From Sedimentisphaerales bacterium (GTDB lineage: Bacteria > Planctomycetota > Phycisphaerae > Sedimentisphaerales > Anaerohalosphaeraceae): 64,000 nucleotides of DNA. The position numbers and the translations under genes are program-made. The notes under the pieces were generated by a model. It did not search any database. It saw only the letters and a program-made list of their open reading frames with translations, and was not told the origin of the DNA. This document shows positions 15,955 through 22,246 of the stretch, piece by piece; position 1 is the stretch's first letter, and each line of letters begins with the position of its first letter. The stretch is from the NCBI GenBank assembly GCA_016926155.1, contig JAFGPC010000051.1, positions 1 to 64,000 of the forward strand, given 5' to 3'.

Positions 15955-17028
15955 TTATTGGTTTGCAAGCTGCTTTTTCCAGGCAGGATAATCCCTTTCC
16001 AGCAATTGCATAGGTCCGGAAGTGTACCAGCTGTAACTGTTGCGCCGTTCGTAGGAAATCTCGTCCATATTATAACGGATAATCCCATCCCGGCTGCAGA
16101 AGATAGGTCGATTGGTCCCAATCTCATAAAACCGTGCCCAGAGAGGCTCGGCGTCCGGATTGGGAACGATTGTCTTGTCATAGCCTCGTGGTGAGTCCGG
16201 GGCCGGTTTTCTGATTTGACGAATTCCTGTAATCTTTACTTCTTCGAACCAGGCGACAGCCGATTTGATGGCTTCTGCAATCTCCGGGGTGGGATTTTCA
16301 ATCTGCATCAGAAAGTGGACAATGCCCACGCTTTCTGAGCCGCTTAAAGAAGGCTTTTCATAGCTGCGGGCTTCGGCAGGCTTCAGAGTCTTTTCATCGT
16401 GCTGGGCGCACCATGCCAGCCGCTTGCCATTTACGATAATCTGACATCGCAGGATACAGTCAACCCCTCTGGTAACGGCTGCTCCGGCCTTGTCCATTTG
16501 TTCGCGATCCACAAAGCGATAAAGCTCTTTTCCAGTTGAGATATCCCTTAAAAGTGTCAAGACGTTGACCATCGCGTTGTCGTTGAAGGTGATATGCCCA
16601 TAGTAGCCGCGGGTATTGGGATAAAATTGCGGCCAGCCCCCATTAGAATACTGCGCTCGCAGAAGATAATCGAATCCTGTATTAAAAGCATCTTTGAATC
16701 GTTTCTGATTGGTGGCATTTACCATCCGAGCCAGATACTGCATTTGGACGGATGTGCCGCCGTTATCGATGGTCGAATCATTACGGCTTTTGTCCTGTAT
16801 AAGTTTCGCTTTGGCTTTACTGTCAAGGGGCTGGGCCATATCGATGTTCTTGTGCCAGCCGCCATCATTTCGTTGATAGAGCAGAACATTGTCGGCAATC
16901 CGAATGGCTTCCTTGCTGCTATACCAGGCATTCGGCTGACGGAGGCATTGCCTCCACGAAATCGCTGCACATGGAGTAGAAAGAACCATTCCAATGAGTG
17001 TAACCGATAAAACCTGAAATAATTTCAT
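15955..17028 (-). CDS. pelA: Pectate lyase, polysaccharide lyase family 10 (PelA type)
   Basis: This secreted enzyme cleaves polygalacturonate by beta-elimination. ATG 17028 is chosen because a signal peptide (residues 1-20, ending AAI) starts there; the frame is open upstream but does not look coding. The mature protein has the PL10 alpha/alpha toroid layout: ADNVLLYQRNDGGWHKNID near the N-terminus, STIDNGGTSVQM, the repeat RAQYSNGGWPQFYPNTRGYY followed by ITFNDNAM, and AWCAQHDEKTLKPAEARSYE before the C-terminal conserved segment. The length (357 aa) is typical. The gene is divergent from the leucine operon and convergent with the TIM-barrel-like gene, and fits the plant-polysaccharide theme of the window. 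Confidence 0.93.
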   Translation of the reverse strand: MKLFQVLSVTLIGMVLSTPCAAISWRQCLRQPNAWYSSKEAIRIADNVLLYQRNDGGWHKNIDMAQPLDSKAKAKLIQDKSRNDSTIDNGGTSVQMQYLARMVNATNQKRFKDAFNTGFDYLLRAQYSNGGWPQFYPNTRGYYGHITFNDNAMVNVLTLLRDISTGKELYRFVDREQMDKAGAAVTRGVDCILRCQIIVNGKRLAWCAQHDEKTLKPAEARSYEKPSLSGSESVGIVHFLMQIENPTPEIAEAIKSAVAWFEEVKITGIRQIRKPAPDSPRGYDKTIVPNPDAEPLWARFYEIGTNRPIFCSRDGIIRYNMDEISYERRNSYSWYTSGPMQLLERDYPAWKKQLANQ

Positions 17029-17187
17029 AAGCCACTCGACTTCATTTTCGACGACCAGATATTGTGATTGATGTATTATTATACAGAAAAGTATCTCGGA
17101 AAGCACGCAGGGGCTGATTTTAGAATTTGATTTTTTTCGAAAACACCTATTGCAATTTTCTGGTATGACGATATAGTTAGAGGAACT

Positions 17188-17259
17188 ATGAAACGTAGCC
17201 AAGTGACAATGCGAATGATTTCAGCCGAATTGATCGGGCTGCTTCTGCTGCGCCTCTAG
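17188..17259 (+). CDS. leuL: Leucine-rich leader peptide upstream of leuA
   Basis: A 23-codon ORF starts at ATG 17188 with AGAGGA 3 nt upstream and ends TAG 17257-17259. The peptide reads MKRSQVTMRMISA followed by ELIGLLLLRL, so six of its last nine residues are Leu (codons TTG, CTG, CTT, CTG, CTG, CTC). It lies 116 nt before the 2-isopropylmalate synthase gene. Short Leu-rich ORFs at this position are the known hallmark of leucine-sensing transcription attenuation. A perfect 6-bp hairpin overlaps its stop codon. The ORF is too short to be an ordinary gene and matches the operon product exactly, so a regulatory role is the best reading. I give it the traditional leuL name by position only. 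Confidence 0.75.
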   Translation: MKRSQVTMRMISAELIGLLLLRL

Positions 17260-17264
17260 GCGCA
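17249..17264 (+). promoter_or_regulatory. Hairpin across the leader-peptide stop codon
   Basis: TGCGCC (17249-17254) and GGCGCA (17259-17264) pair perfectly around a TCTA loop containing part of the TAG stop. A ribosome stalled at the Leu codons or at the stop would change this pairing. No U-rich tract follows it, and no classical terminator is visible between 17265 and the leuA ATG. Control may therefore work by translation or by Rho rather than by an intrinsic terminator. Confidence 0.5.
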
Positions 17265-17375
17265 ATGAATAAACTCTTACATATCTCAAATCCTCAATTT
17301 CCTGATTTTCAATGGAATTTCCGCGTTTTGTAGGCCATAATCGCCTGCTGCGTTTGGATCGACAGGAGAAAAACC

Positions 17376-18926
17376 ATGATTTCTGATACAGTAGTTATTT
17401 TTGATACGACATTACGGGACGGTGAGCAGTCGCCAGGTGCGGCAATGTCGATCAGCGAAAAGATCGAGATTGCCCATCAATTGGCTAAGCTCAAAGTAGA
17501 TATTATTGAGGCGGGTTTTCCGGTTTCCTCCCCGGCCCAGTTCGAGGCCACCCGGTTGTGCGCTGAGCAGGTGGAAGGTCCGGTGATCTGTGGATTGGCT
17601 CGTGCTCAGGCCGGAGATATCGAAGCGGCGGGAAAAGCCCTGCAGGCGGCCAAAAAACGGAGAATCCACACCTTTATTGCGACCAGTCCGATCCATATGG
17701 AATACAAGCTCCGCAAGAAGCCGGATGAGGTCGTAAAAATGGCCGTCGAAGCCGTCAAATTGGCAAAAACTTTTACCGATGATGTGGAATTTTCACCGGA
17801 AGATGCCTGCCGCAGTGAAATTCCGTTCCTGATTGAGGTTTTGACGGCGGTTGTGGAAGCCGGTGCGACCACACTCAATATTCCGGATACTGTCGGATAC
17901 GTGCTTCCGTATGAATATGGACAGATCATCAAACGGCTCAGAGAAGGGGTTAAAAATATTGACAAAGCTGTAATCAGCACCCATTGTCACAATGATCTGG
18001 GTATGGCCGTCGGCAACAGCCTGGCCGGTGTTCGTAACGGAGCCCGTCAGGTGGAATGCACCGTTAACGGCCTCGGAGAGCGTGCGGGCAATGCCGCCAT
18101 GGAAGAGATTGTTATGGCGATTCATACCCGTCCGGACTTTTTCGAGAATGTTAAAACCAACATTAAAACGACGGAAATCTATCGTGCCAGTCAGTTGGTA
18201 TCACAGATTACGGGTTTTGTGATCCAGCCGAATAAAGCAATTGTCGGAGCGAATGCCTTTGCTCATGAATCGGGCATTCATGTAGATGGCATCCTCAAAC
18301 AAAGACAGACATATGAGATTATGACTCCTGAAACTATCGGTCTGTCCGGTTCACGAATGGTGTTGGGGCGCCATTCCGGAAGAGCTGGTTTTTCCGATCG
18401 GTGCGTGTCAATGGGTTATAAGCTGTCCAAAGAAGAACTGCAGGCTGCTTATGAAAAATTCCTACAGATCGCCGACAAGAAAAAAGAGGTCTTCGACGAG
18501 GATATCGCGGCCATTATTAATGACGAAATTCGTGCGATCGAGCATGTATACGGCCTGGAGTATCTCCATGTAGCTTGTGGTACGGGAACCCTGCCTACGG
18601 CCAGTGTCAAGATTCGCAAAGGCGAAGACATCAAGCTGGCTGCCGCGTTTGGCGATGGCCCGGTCGATGCCGCATACGAAGCAATCCGCGAAGCGACCGG
18701 ACTTTCCCCCGCAATCGAAAATTATTCGATCCGGGCGATTACCGGCGGGAAGGAGGCTATGGGCGAAGCGACTGTGAGGATTAAAAACGGCACTCGGACG
18801 TACATGGGCCGGGGCGTATCCACGGACATCATCGAAGCCAGTGCCAAGGCATACGTCGACGCCATCAATCGTATGGTCTCGCTGGAAAGCAAGGATCGAC
18901 TGAGCGAGGCAAAGGCCGAGGTTTGA
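17376..18926 (+). CDS. leuA: 2-isopropylmalate synthase
   Basis: This enzyme condenses acetyl-CoA with 2-oxoisovalerate in the first committed step of leucine synthesis. The 516-aa product shows the DRE-TIM signature FDTTLRDGEQSPGAAMS near residue 9, metal-binding STHCHNDLGMAVGNS and the second signature NGLGERAGNAAMEE. A C-terminal LeuA dimer/allosteric domain (about 390-510) is where leucine feedback acts. The length is standard. AGGAG lies 8 nt before the ATG. It is the first structural gene of an operon with leuC, leuD and leuB and follows a Leu-rich leader peptide. Confidence 0.97.
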   Translation: MISDTVVIFDTTLRDGEQSPGAAMSISEKIEIAHQLAKLKVDIIEAGFPVSSPAQFEATRLCAEQVEGPVICGLARAQAGDIEAAGKALQAAKKRRIHTFIATSPIHMEYKLRKKPDEVVKMAVEAVKLAKTFTDDVEFSPEDACRSEIPFLIEVLTAVVEAGATTLNIPDTVGYVLPYEYGQIIKRLREGVKNIDKAVISTHCHNDLGMAVGNSLAGVRNGARQVECTVNGLGERAGNAAMEEIVMAIHTRPDFFENVKTNIKTTEIYRASQLVSQITGFVIQPNKAIVGANAFAHESGIHVDGILKQRQTYEIMTPETIGLSGSRMVLGRHSGRAGFSDRCVSMGYKLSKEELQAAYEKFLQIADKKKEVFDEDIAAIINDEIRAIEHVYGLEYLHVACGTGTLPTASVKIRKGEDIKLAAAFGDGPVDAAYEAIREATGLSPAIENYSIRAITGGKEAMGEATVRIKNGTRTYMGRGVSTDIIEASAKAYVDAINRMVSLESKDRLSEAKAEV

Positions 18927-18988
18927 TCATGCGATAGGATTCGTAAAGAGGAAAAAGAAAACGAGGTAACATCTTGGGAGAAAGCAAG

Positions 18989-20251
18989 ATGCCAATGACA
19001 ATAACGGAACAAATTTTCGCCCGGGCCGCCGGAAAACAGGCGGTCGAACCGGGTGATCTGGTCAATGCAAAGATCGATATGATAATGTGCCACGATGTAA
19101 CCACCCCGCCGGCGATCTCGATGCTCAAACAACACGGCATCGACAGGGTGTTCGACCTGGAAAAGCTTGCGGTTACCCCGGACCATTTTCAGCCGGCAAA
19201 GGATATCAAAAGCGCCGAGCTGCATAAGCGTCTGGACACGTGGGCGAAGGAAAAAGGCATCAGACATTATTACCCGATTGGCAAGGCAGGAGTCTGCCAC
19301 GCCCTTTTACCCGAGCAGGGACACATCCGCCCGGGAGAAGTGATCGTCGGCGGCGACAGCCATACCTGCACGTATGGGGCGTTTGCCGCGTTTAGCACAG
19401 GGATCGGATCGACCGACCTGGCCGCGGCAATCGCCACCGGGCAGTTATGGTTTCGGGTGCCTGAGTCCATGAAATTCACCCTTAGCGGTCATCTGCCGCA
19501 TGGGGTATACAGCAAGGATGTCGTACTGGAGGTGATTCGTCGCATCGGCACGGATGGAGCCCTGTATAAGGCCATCGAATATGTCGGTCCGGCCTTGAAG
19601 GAGATGAGCATGGAGGCCCGTATGACCATCACGAACATGGCCATCGAAGCGGGCGGCAAGAACGCAATCATCGGTTTCGATGAAACAACAAAGCAGTATC
19701 TGGAAGGACGACTCAAGGGCAAACAGGATTATACTGTCTTTGAGTCGGATCCGGAAGCGAAGTATTGTTTCGAGGACACGATCGATTGCGACAAACTCGA
19801 ACCTCTCGTGGCGTATCCACACCTGCCCAGCAATGGCAAGCCGATCTCGGAATGTGCAGGTGAAGTGATGGATCAGTGCTATATCGGAAGCTGTACCAAT
19901 GGGCGTATTGAGGATTTCCGAATCGCCGCTTCGGTAATGAAGGGCAAACAGGTCAAGATTCGCACGCTGATTGTTCCAACCACGCCGACGGTGTGGCGAC
20001 AGGCCAACGATGAGGGCTTGCTGAATATTTTCTATGATGCCGGCTGCGTGATCAGTGCTCCCACCTGCGGGGCGTGCCTGGGCGGCTTTATGGGTGTGCT
20101 TGGCGCCGAAGAGAAATGTGTCAGCACGACCAACCGTAATTTTGTCGGTCGAATGGGACACCCCACCAGCGAAGTATATCTGTGTAACCCGGCTACCGCA
20201 GCGGCCAGCGCTGTGGAAGGAAAATTAGCGGACCCGAGAAAATATATGTGA
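18989..20251 (+). CDS. leuC: 3-isopropylmalate dehydratase large subunit (HacA type)
   Basis: The 420-aa aconitase-family protein isomerises 2- to 3-isopropylmalate with LeuD and a [4Fe-4S] cluster. It starts [15 protein letters not shown] at ATG 18989 with GGGAG upstream; TTG 18974 is an in-frame alternative. Cluster ligands are in GSCTNGR (near residue 301) and CGACLGG (near 361 and 364). The length of 420 is that of the archaeal/HacA-like LeuC2 group rather than the 460-470 aa enterobacterial LeuC. It lies 62 nt after leuA. Confidence 0.95.
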
Positions 20252-20504: not shown

Positions 20505-20554
20505 AAAATCTGTGAAGTCTGTGTAATGTGTGGTTTCACAGAGAGGAGATAAAT

Positions 20555-21034
20555 ATGGCAAAAACGTATGTATATAAACGTGATCATGTTAATACGGATG
20601 AAATTATTCCAGCCCGGTATTTGAATACGGACGATGCGGCGGAACTGGCGACACACTGTCTGGAGGACCTGGATCCGGAGTTTGTCAACAAAGTGCAGCC
20701 CGGAGATGTTATCGTAGCTGGGGATGACTTTGGTTGTGGGTCCAGTCGGGAACATGCCGTTTGGGCGATTCAGGGTGCCAAGGTCGGGGCCGTAGTCGCT
20801 CATTCATTTGCTCGTATCTTTTACCGCAATTGCATTAACAATGGATTTTACCCAATCGAGCTGCCCGGCGCTGTGGACAAAATCCATGACGGCGATGAAG
20901 TGGAAGTGGATTACAAACTGGGAGTAATCCATAATAAAACGCAGAATAAAGATATCCCCTTCAAAGCGCTGCCGGACTTTGCATTGGAAATCATTAACCA
21001 TGGCGGATTGCTGGAACATATTAAAAAACAGTAA
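20555..21034 (+). CDS. leuD: 3-isopropylmalate dehydratase small subunit
   Basis: This is the swivelling domain partner of LeuC. The start is ATG 20555, preceded by GAGGAG; an in-frame upstream GTG is less likely. The 159-aa product starts KTYVYKRDHVNTDEIIPARYLN, the classical LeuD N-terminus, and has the substrate loop DDFGCGSSREHA and GVAHSFARIFYRN-like segment (AVVAHSFARIFYRNCINNGF). The size is that of the short LeuD2 group, consistent with the HacA-like LeuC. It lies between the small membrane ORF and leuB. Confidence 0.96.
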   Translation: MAKTYVYKRDHVNTDEIIPARYLNTDDAAELATHCLEDLDPEFVNKVQPGDVIVAGDDFGCGSSREHAVWAIQGAKVGAVVAHSFARIFYRNCINNGFYPIELPGAVDKIHDGDEVEVDYKLGVIHNKTQNKDIPFKALPDFALEIINHGGLLEHIKKQ

Positions 21035-21160
21035 CTGTGGGATTATCTACGCAGCCTGTGGTTTAATCTTGTTCGGAAAATGGTGACAAGTAGACGCAAA
21101 ATGGCGTAGGTTTACAACGTTGAACACGTAGAATCGAGAATGGGAAAGGATAAGGTATCA

Positions 21161-22246
21161 ATGGCGACGTACAAAATAGCGGTCATAGGCGGCGACGGGA
21201 CCGGGCCGGAAGTAACGGTCGAAGCAATCAAGGTGATGGATGCCGCCGCAGACAAATTCGGTTTCAAGGTGGATAAGACTGAGTTTGATTTCGGAGGCGA
21301 GCGGTACAAGCGGACCGGAGAGACCCTGCCGGACAGTGGTGTGGAGGAATTAAGGAAATTTGACGCGATTTTACTCGGTGCCATCGGACACCCGGACGTT
21401 AAGCCGGGCATCCTGGAAAAAGGGATTCTCCTTAGTGCCCGCTTCGAACTGGACCAGTACATCAATCTTCGACCGGTTCGCCTGTATCCCGGTGTAGAGA
21501 CGCCGTTGAAGGATAAAGGACCGGAAGAGATCGACTACGTTGTGGTTCGCGAGAACACCGGTGATTTATACACCGGAGCCGGGGGATTTACCCTGAAAGG
21601 TACACCGCACGAAACTGCTATCCAGACGGCGATGTATACCCGTTTTCAGGTGGACCGTTGCCTCAAGTATGCCTTCGAGTATGCTCGTAAATATGGCAAA
21701 AAGGCCCGGGGCAAAGGAAAGGAAAATACACTGGGGCTGGTCGGAAAGACCAACGTTCTGACGTTTGTCTACGACCTGTGGGAACGAGCCTTCCATGAGA
21801 TGGGCCAGAATGAATACCCGGAGATTCGACGGGATTACTATCATGTAGATGCTACATGCATGTGGATGATTAAAAATCCCGAGTGGTTTGATGTACTCGT
21901 AACCGGCAATATGTTCGGCGACATCATCACGGATCTGGGCGCCATTACCCAGGGCGGGATGGGCATCGCCGCCGGCGGCAATATCAATCCGGAAGGTGTG
22001 AGCATGTTCGAGCCCATCGGCGGGAGCGCTCCTAAATATACCGGCCAGGGCGTGATCAATCCTCTGGCTGCGATCTGTGCCATGCAGATGATGTTACAAA
22101 CCCTGGGCGAAGAAACCGCTGCCGAGAAAATAGAAGAAGCGGTGAAGACCGTTACAGCGACCAAGCTCAAATCGTTGGCGGCCGGCCGAATGGGTTATTC
22201 GACCAGCCAGGTGGGTGATCTGGTGGCCGACCTGGTGGCTCAATAA
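21161..22246 (+). CDS. leuB: 3-isopropylmalate dehydrogenase
   Basis: This NAD-dependent oxidative decarboxylase performs the third step of leucine synthesis. The product begins YKIAVIGGDGTGPEVTVEA. It carries the isocitrate/isopropylmalate family residues in FELDQYINLRPVRLYPG and VVRENTGDLYTGAGG, and the metal site NMFGDIITDLGA. The NAD-binding segment is EPIGGSAPKYTGQG. ATG 21161 is preferred (361 aa) because AAGG lies 6 nt upstream; ATG 21140 is an alternative seven codons earlier. Operon position next to leuD argues for LeuB over isocitrate dehydrogenase. A strong terminator follows. Confidence 0.9.
   Translation: MATYKIAVIGGDGTGPEVTVEAIKVMDAAADKFGFKVDKTEFDFGGERYKRTGETLPDSGVEELRKFDAILLGAIGHPDVKPGILEKGILLSARFELDQYINLRPVRLYPGVETPLKDKGPEEIDYVVVRENTGDLYTGAGGFTLKGTPHETAIQTAMYTRFQVDRCLKYAFEYARKYGKKARGKGKENTLGLVGKTNVLTFVYDLWERAFHEMGQNEYPEIRRDYYHVDATCMWMIKNPEWFDVLVTGNMFGDIITDLGAITQGGMGIAAGGNINPEGVSMFEPIGGSAPKYTGQGVINPLAAICAMQMMLQTLGEETAAEKIEEAVKTVTATKLKSLAAGRMGYSTSQVGDLVADLVAQ

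Follow-up and report, generated by a model that had tools for sequence, protein, structure and literature searches.

The leu, trp, and his attenuators of Escherichia coli combine a short leader ORF that carries a run of codons for the amino acid of the pathway, a hairpin at the stop codon (the 1:2 hairpin), and a 3:4 intrinsic terminator in front of the operon. In other systems, such as E. coli tnaC and Salmonella mgtL, upstream ORFs are linked to Rho. The translation state of the short ORF in tnaC, mgtL, and topAI/toiL decides on a Rho-dependent end at a C-rich, unstructured loading region, and the signals sensed are tryptophan with nascent-peptide arrest, Mg2+/proline, and antibiotics, respectively. 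The link between upstream ORF and Rho in topAI/toiL is described in PMC12121999. The actinobacterial leucine leader or LEU element (PMC1262725; LeuL1, PMC8079986) is located before leuA, is leaderless, and is without an intrinsic terminator; it is described as a pseudoknot in which the base joins the Leu codons to the Shine–Dalgarno (SD) sequence of leuA (PMC1262725), and translational attenuation by SD pairing was proposed for part of these elements. A survey from 2010 stated that leader peptides were known only from the Proteobacteria and Actinobacteria, added the Firmicutes, and noted that its own method misses Rho-dependent cases (PMC2965389). A preliminary reading of the locus described here (the sequence-only reading) knew of no leucine leader peptide described in planctomycetes; none was found in the openly accessible literature searched, to which the claim of novelty is limited.

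The locus lies in a 64,000-nt stretch of DNA from a Sedimentisphaerales bacterium within the Planctomycetota (the whole stretch is referred to as the window). It shares the short leader ORF, the run of codons for the pathway amino acid, the hairpin at the stop codon, and the downstream operon with the E. coli attenuators but differs from them in the absence of a 3:4 intrinsic terminator and of a conserved antiterminator, in an apparently leaderless leader, and in a second promoter between leader and operon. The position before leuA, the probably leaderless start, and the absence of an intrinsic terminator are shared with the LEU element, whereas peptide and hairpin differ and SD pairing is unsupported. 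Compared with the Rho-linked ORFs, stalling on leucine codons would take the place of their signals. The attenuators of other Planctomycetota also have a Leu-rich short ORF before leuA, but they contain strong intrinsic terminators, no G-poor tract and, in several cases, complementary segments at the leader stop. It is reasonably probable that the locus represents a ribosome-mediated leucine attenuator of leuACDB, a derived form without an intrinsic terminator in which termination is probably Rho-dependent.

The Leader ORF and the leu Operon

The sequence-only reading had described a 23-codon ORF with six Leu residues among its final nine, a perfect 6-bp hairpin across its stop codon, and 116 nt between the stop codon and the ATG of leuA (17376). 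Each of these points was confirmed when the window was re-read from ATG to TAG (table 1). The ORF consists of the codons ATG AAA CGT AGC ... CTG CTT CTG CTG CGC CTC TAG with Leu codons at positions 17230, 17239, 17242, 17245, 17248, and 17254, and its TAG (17257–17259) sits in the loop of hairpin B and the first base of the 3′ arm. A divergent pectate lyase gene (15958–17202, minus strand, PF09492) has its likely ATG near 17029, which places the leader promoter P1 within a short divergent intergenic region. The leader region matched none of the 4227 Rfam models at the gathering threshold or at E ≤ 1, and the leader peptide matched no NCBIfam family.

Table 1. Features of the leader region and the leu operon in the window.
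Feature	Position	Strand	Description and evidence
P1, leader promoter	17150..17177	+	TTGCAA (17150-17155), TATAGT (17172-17177); promoter scan; ends 10 nt before leader ATG
Leucine leader peptide ORF	17188..17259	+	ATG start, 23 codons + TAG; sequence MKRSQVTMRMISAELIGLLLLRL
Hairpin A	17225..17237	+	CCGA-ATTGA-TCGG, inside ORF; overlaps start of Leu run; weak in window, clear in group
Hairpin B	17249..17264	+	TGCGCC-TCTA-GGCGCA at stop codon; arms 17249-17254 / 17259-17264, perfect 6 bp
Candidate rut	17265..17309	+	G-depleted, C/T-rich unstructured tract; composition, fold energy; no tract in relatives with intrinsic terminators
P2, second promoter	17313..17341	+	TGGAAT (17313-17318), 17-nt spacer, CATAAT (17336-17341); conserved between leader and leuA
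SD of leuA	17364..17369	+	AGGAGA; SD-like sequence conserved in relatives
leuA	17376..18926	+	2-isopropylmalate synthase, first gene of leuACDB; NF002086, E 5e-238
leuC	18974..20251	+	Aconitase-family isopropylmalate isomerase large subunit; PF00330
leuD	20528..21034	+	Isopropylmalate isomerase small subunit; PF00694
leuB	21140..22246	+	3-isopropylmalate dehydrogenase; PF00180

Conservation of the Leader within the Sedimentisphaerales

Relatives were retrieved with the LeuA of the window as query and the upstream regions with a recognized LeuA start were compared. Most of these regions contain an ATG-started ORF of ∼22–26 codons before leuA that ends in a Leu run followed by Arg and then R, L, P, or Q, together with a hairpin TGCGCC-N(3-6)-GGCGC at the leader end that has the stop codon in its loop or just past the stem. 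A covariance model built from the Leu run and the hairpin matched 114 of the 148 genomes of the order and 60 of the 66 good-quality genomes (cut-off E ≤ 0.05), and leader and hairpin are kept in about three quarters of the sampled Sedimentisphaerales genomes. All strong matches retrieved lie directly before leuA. The few retrieved matches away from leuA are all weak (E 5e-4 or worse) and lack hairpin and leader, and the presence of the module elsewhere in the genomes was rejected. Within a class-wide sample, the model matched the Sedimentisphaerales only, plus one weak match.

The eight codons before the CGC codon contain on average 4.74 Leu codons in 74 distinct relatives, compared with 0.77 and 0.26 in the two shifted frames of the same stretch and with 0.31 in the codons that immediately precede it. 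Of the 74 leaders, 61 encode Leu and 13 Ile at codon −1, with an entropy of 0 at the second and 1.95 bits at the third position; all six Leu codons are in use, and the frame is open from the ATG beside the promoter in every relative counted. Constant Leu/Ile with an invariant second and a near-random third base indicates selection on the amino acid, and the leader is, as judged from this substitution pattern, selected for leucine and not for bases. Upstream of leuA there is thus a short ORF whose Leu run is kept as amino acid, as expected for a leucine leader, and leucine sensing by the leader is well supported on comparative grounds.

Two Hairpins around the Leu Run

A 33-nt piece that includes hairpin B folds with −11.6 kcal/mol compared with −6.7 kcal/mol for shuffled sequences (z −2.4). 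The sequence of hairpin B is almost invariant across most of the order and therefore says little on pairing, which is settled by one family of relatives (f5) that carries TAGCCC-N4-GGGCTA at the same place in all ten leaders, with the stop codon at the 3′ arm. This replacement of TGCGCC/GGCGCA by TAGCCC/GGGCTA is a compensatory change, although it is essentially a single event and counts as one piece of evidence. All cells (100%) are paired in an alignment of 19 rows, 27 cells are changed on both sides, and covariation reaches 0.526 compared with 0.181 in shuffled and ≤0.029 in slid alignments. The check that the sequence-only reading had proposed, an alignment of the regions upstream of leuA in related genomes, accordingly recovered both the conserved ORF with its Leu codons and a compensatory change in the hairpin. 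A function of hairpin B as a DNA operator was considered and rejected; the loop varies from 3 to 6 nt, which is better suited to RNA.

Hairpin A was not part of the sequence-only reading. Its 3′ arm lies on the first Leu codons, usually 9–12 nt before hairpin B, and it covaries while overlapping the Leu run, with a sequence that is free to vary (e.g., CAGGGC/GCCCTG, ATCGAC/GTCGAT, AAGGCA/TGCCTT, and CTGCTGA/TCAGCAG). Among 49 non-redundant relatives (<65% identical), hairpin A surpasses codon shuffles (Wilcoxon p 3e-10, where this and the other p-values are indicative, the relatives being not independent) and occupies a fixed position in 65% compared with 23% of the codon shuffles.

Promoter P1 and a Probably Leaderless Start

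P1 is near consensus. The form TTGCAN / TATAAT, ending 7–10 nt from the leader ATG, is present in 69 out of 74 relatives (exact TATAAT in 44), and this distance places the transcription start at the ATG or a few bases upstream. An SD-like sequence was found upstream of the leader ATG in 4 of the 74 relatives but upstream of leuA in 71 of 74. The good ribosome binding site that had been assigned to the leader, an AGAGGA-like sequence, belongs to one of these four and is probably incidental; the leader is probably translated from a leaderless mRNA and not driven by an SD sequence. Leaderless leaders have precedents in LeuL1 of Streptomyces lividans (PMC8079986) and in rnTrpL of Sinorhizobium (PMC10117765).

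Intrinsic Terminators Are Found in Other Planctomycetes

A scan of the window detected no intrinsic terminator, in agreement with the sequence-only reading, and a strong hairpin with a T-run between leader and leuA was found in 0 out of 74 Sedimentisphaerales. The same test identified such a structure in 21 out of 31 leuA upstream regions of other planctomycete orders and classes, and in none of the shuffled sequences. Loose criteria yielded weak terminator-like hairpins in 6 of the 74 relatives (0.5 expected). The 3′ arm of hairpin B displayed no own-over-swapped pairing with downstream sequence and only a weak excess over shuffled sequence. Antiterminator pairing of the hairpin B arms or of hairpin A with downstream sequence was rejected for the lack of an own-over-swapped signal, and the hairpin-arm pairing test revealed no conserved pairing downstream of the leader in the relatives. 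Neither a GC-rich hairpin with a U-tract nor an exclusive antiterminator 3′ of the leader stop, the two marks of a classical attenuator, was therefore found. The earlier suggestion that the mechanism may differ from classical attenuation holds within this order (0/74 vs. 21/31) but does not extend to planctomycetes at large, in which classical-looking Leu attenuators of leuA occur.

More than half of the leuA regions of other planctomycetes contain a Leu-rich short ORF, often ending in TAGGG. Classical-looking leucine attenuators occur among the leuA upstream regions L206–L237 from other Planctomycetota, with terminators such as ACCCTGCGA...TCGCGGGGTTTTTT in 21 of 31 regions. Sequences at or near the leader end are the complement of the terminator 5′ arm in L215 (CGTAGGGC with GCCCTACG) and in L217 and L222 (AGGGT with ACCCT). 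Such complementarity, seen in several other planctomycetes, is in its pairing potential the plan of a classical antiterminator. The terminators and complementary antiterminator segments together indicate that leuA is controlled by Leu attenuation in members of the Planctomycetota. Within this single phylum, many lineages thus have intrinsic-terminator attenuators in front of leuA, whereas one order has a form that lacks the terminator, so that the swap of the output stage of the switch can be traced and tested. Surveys that rely on premature intrinsic terminators overlook elements such as the Sedimentisphaerales leader.

A C-Rich Tract as a Candidate Rho Loading Region

The 40 nt after hairpin B contain 6% G and 27% C (C/G 4.35 compared with about 1.0 in controls) with a mean fold energy of −0.5 kcal/mol. 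The tract is unstructured, C-rich, and G-poor with YC dinucleotides, as expected for a Rho-type rut, and its features agree with the rut properties listed in PMC12121999; a rho gene is present in the source genome. The corresponding tract in planctomycetes with intrinsic terminators has a C/G of 1.15 (p 5e-10), and family f5 is intermediate with 2.31. A terminator and a C-rich tract thus seldom occur together, and the case for Rho at this locus is based mainly on this mutual exclusion. Judging from composition, termination is probably Rho-dependent, and of the two alternatives that the sequence-only reading had offered, translational or Rho-based, Rho fits better. At ∼45 nt in the window the tract is short for a full rut, and C-richness is no proof of Rho action. 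A conserved pairing able to hide the tract was not found among the relatives.

A Second Promoter before leuA

P2 is weaker than P1 and follows the consensus TGGAWT-17-CATAAT (−35 broadly T(G/A)GANN), with a 17-nt spacer in 59 and CATAAT in 56 of the 74 relatives. Strong P2 scores were obtained for 69% of the relatives compared with 0.9% of the shuffled sequences, and the −10 element is TATAAT in several f5 members. With P2 located below the switch, leuA depends on the leader only in part. The segments GTGGATTTTT...GCATAAT were also considered as attenuator segments 3:4 and rejected based on the fixed 17-nt spacing, the TATAAT in f5, and their retention without a leader; TGCGC is mildly enriched in this region (11/74 vs. 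4.6). In two loci (L041 and L043 of genomes G031 and G034) the leader is lost or degenerate while P2 is intact, and these represent natural deletions of the switch. Insertions of ∼50–170 nt in single genomes (L007, L011, L012, L019, L041, L043, L022, L024, and L005) separate the leader from P2 or P2 from leuA but never the −35 from the −10 element of P2.

Proposed Mechanism and Alternative Explanations

The leader peptide, hairpins A and B, the two promoters, and the C-rich tract are all conserved, as shown by sequence comparison among the relatives. In the proposed attenuator, transcription from the strong P1 would begin at the leader ATG or no more than a few bases away, so that the first ribosome would load as the RNA emerges. 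With ample leucyl-tRNA the ribosome would pass the Leu run, terminate at the stop codon, and depart; hairpins A and B would then fold and leave the C-rich, G-poor tract naked, so that Rho could load and halt transcription from P1 ahead of leuA. Under leucine shortage, the ribosome would stall in the Leu run, between A and B, both hairpins would be kept open, and P1 transcription would continue into leuA, with the weaker P2 downstream of the switch providing a basal leuA level. We infer the stalling on leucine shortage, the Rho step, and the manner in which an upstream-stalled ribosome stops Rho, and the polarity (leucine-rich is off) follows from pathway logic. The tract would not be covered by the ribosome itself during a stall in the Leu run; our guesses are that Rho might be blocked by the open hairpins A and B or by the RNA being held engaged.

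Translational attenuation, in which the leader region would hide the leuA SD until a stalled ribosome frees it, is an unlikely alternative. Both the Leu codons and the C-rich tract are rich in pyrimidines and hence broadly anti-SD-like, and pairing of the Leu run with the SD is slightly stronger than after shuffling of the run (p 0.004). The Leu runs, however, show no preference for their own SD over swapped SDs (p 0.63), which gives no support to a counterpart of the base stem of the LEU element (Leu codons with leuA SD), and the C-rich tract pairs with the SD worse than shuffled sequence. Sequestration of the SD by either the tract or the Leu run is thus unsupported by the pairing tests, and P2 transcripts would be without the anti-SD. 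Little weight is likewise given to classical attenuation by an intrinsic terminator that the scans overlooked, perhaps one overlapping P2. Hairpins followed by T-runs are located near P2 in a few relatives (L005, L015, and L026) and other Planctomycetota have attenuators of this type; the criterion that detects most of the latter, however, found none in the order (0/74), the scan of the window found none, and the 3′ arm of hairpin B is without a conserved pairing partner.

The P1 transcript might instead act mainly in trans as a small RNA or peptide, as rnTrpL does in Sinorhizobium, with P2 driving leuA. Its compact and apparently leaderless form with two hairpins, the location of P2 between this RNA and leuA, and the precedent of the leaderless rnTrpL (PMC10117765) are consistent with such a role, which nevertheless appears improbable: the strong copies retrieved all stand directly before leuA, which a trans-acting RNA would not need, and the sequences of peptide and stem A vary freely except for the Leu codons and hairpin B. 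A riboswitch-like structured RNA that is open in one frame by chance, with translation being irrelevant, would account for the almost invariant hairpin B in most of the order but is very improbable, since third positions vary with constant Leu/Ile, Leu is enriched in one frame only, every relative counted has an open frame from a promoter-adjacent ATG, and the hairpin B sequence was replaceable in f5.

Related Modules in Other Phyla

A single pass through 84,980 species genomes located the pattern CTNCTNYTGCGCCNNTAGGCGCA at 63 places, about one third of them in the Planctomycetota, most others in the Gamma- and Betaproteobacteria, and one in a Myxococcales record. Nearly all of these places fall within a leader-like ORF that ends a short distance upstream of leuA, and both types of leuA are represented. 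None of 33 of these leaders has an SD-like sequence, the 30 nt after hairpin B have a C/G of 2.2, and the sequence downstream of the shared leader hairpin differs by lineage. In the LeuA tree, the Sedimentisphaerales and the leader-bearing Proteobacteria fall into distinct groups, each with good support and a long branch. A recent transfer of leuA together with the leader between Proteobacteria and Planctomycetota is not supported by this tree, and the shared module is not explained by recent leuA transfer. Tentatively, a terminator-less leucine attenuator (leaderless leader, paired hairpins, rut-like tract, and backup promoter) may characterize one order within a phylum of intrinsic-terminator attenuators, with a nearly identical LLLLR and TGCGCC-NNTA-GGCGCA module controlling leuA in distant Proteobacteria as a result of convergence, deep ancestry, or leader-only transfer. 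The reuse of one stop-codon hairpin across phyla raises the question of why this solution recurs.

Two proteobacterial groups carry further conserved segments. Six loci of the Steroidobacteraceae and related bacteria (L146, L151, L155, L159, L161, and L180) contain GCGCCAACGGTCGGCGC....GACCG after the hairpin and before a type-2 leuA; the segment can fold as an H-type pseudoknot whose arms repeat the arms of hairpin B and is reminiscent of the actinobacterial LEU element. Ten loci of the Acidiferrobacter/Muproteobacteria group (L140, L143, L152, L163, L165, L166, L174, L190, L192, and L193) share a conserved NTCCTGGCGAGGAN...AATACGCA in the interval between leader and leuA, the outer pairs of which covary.
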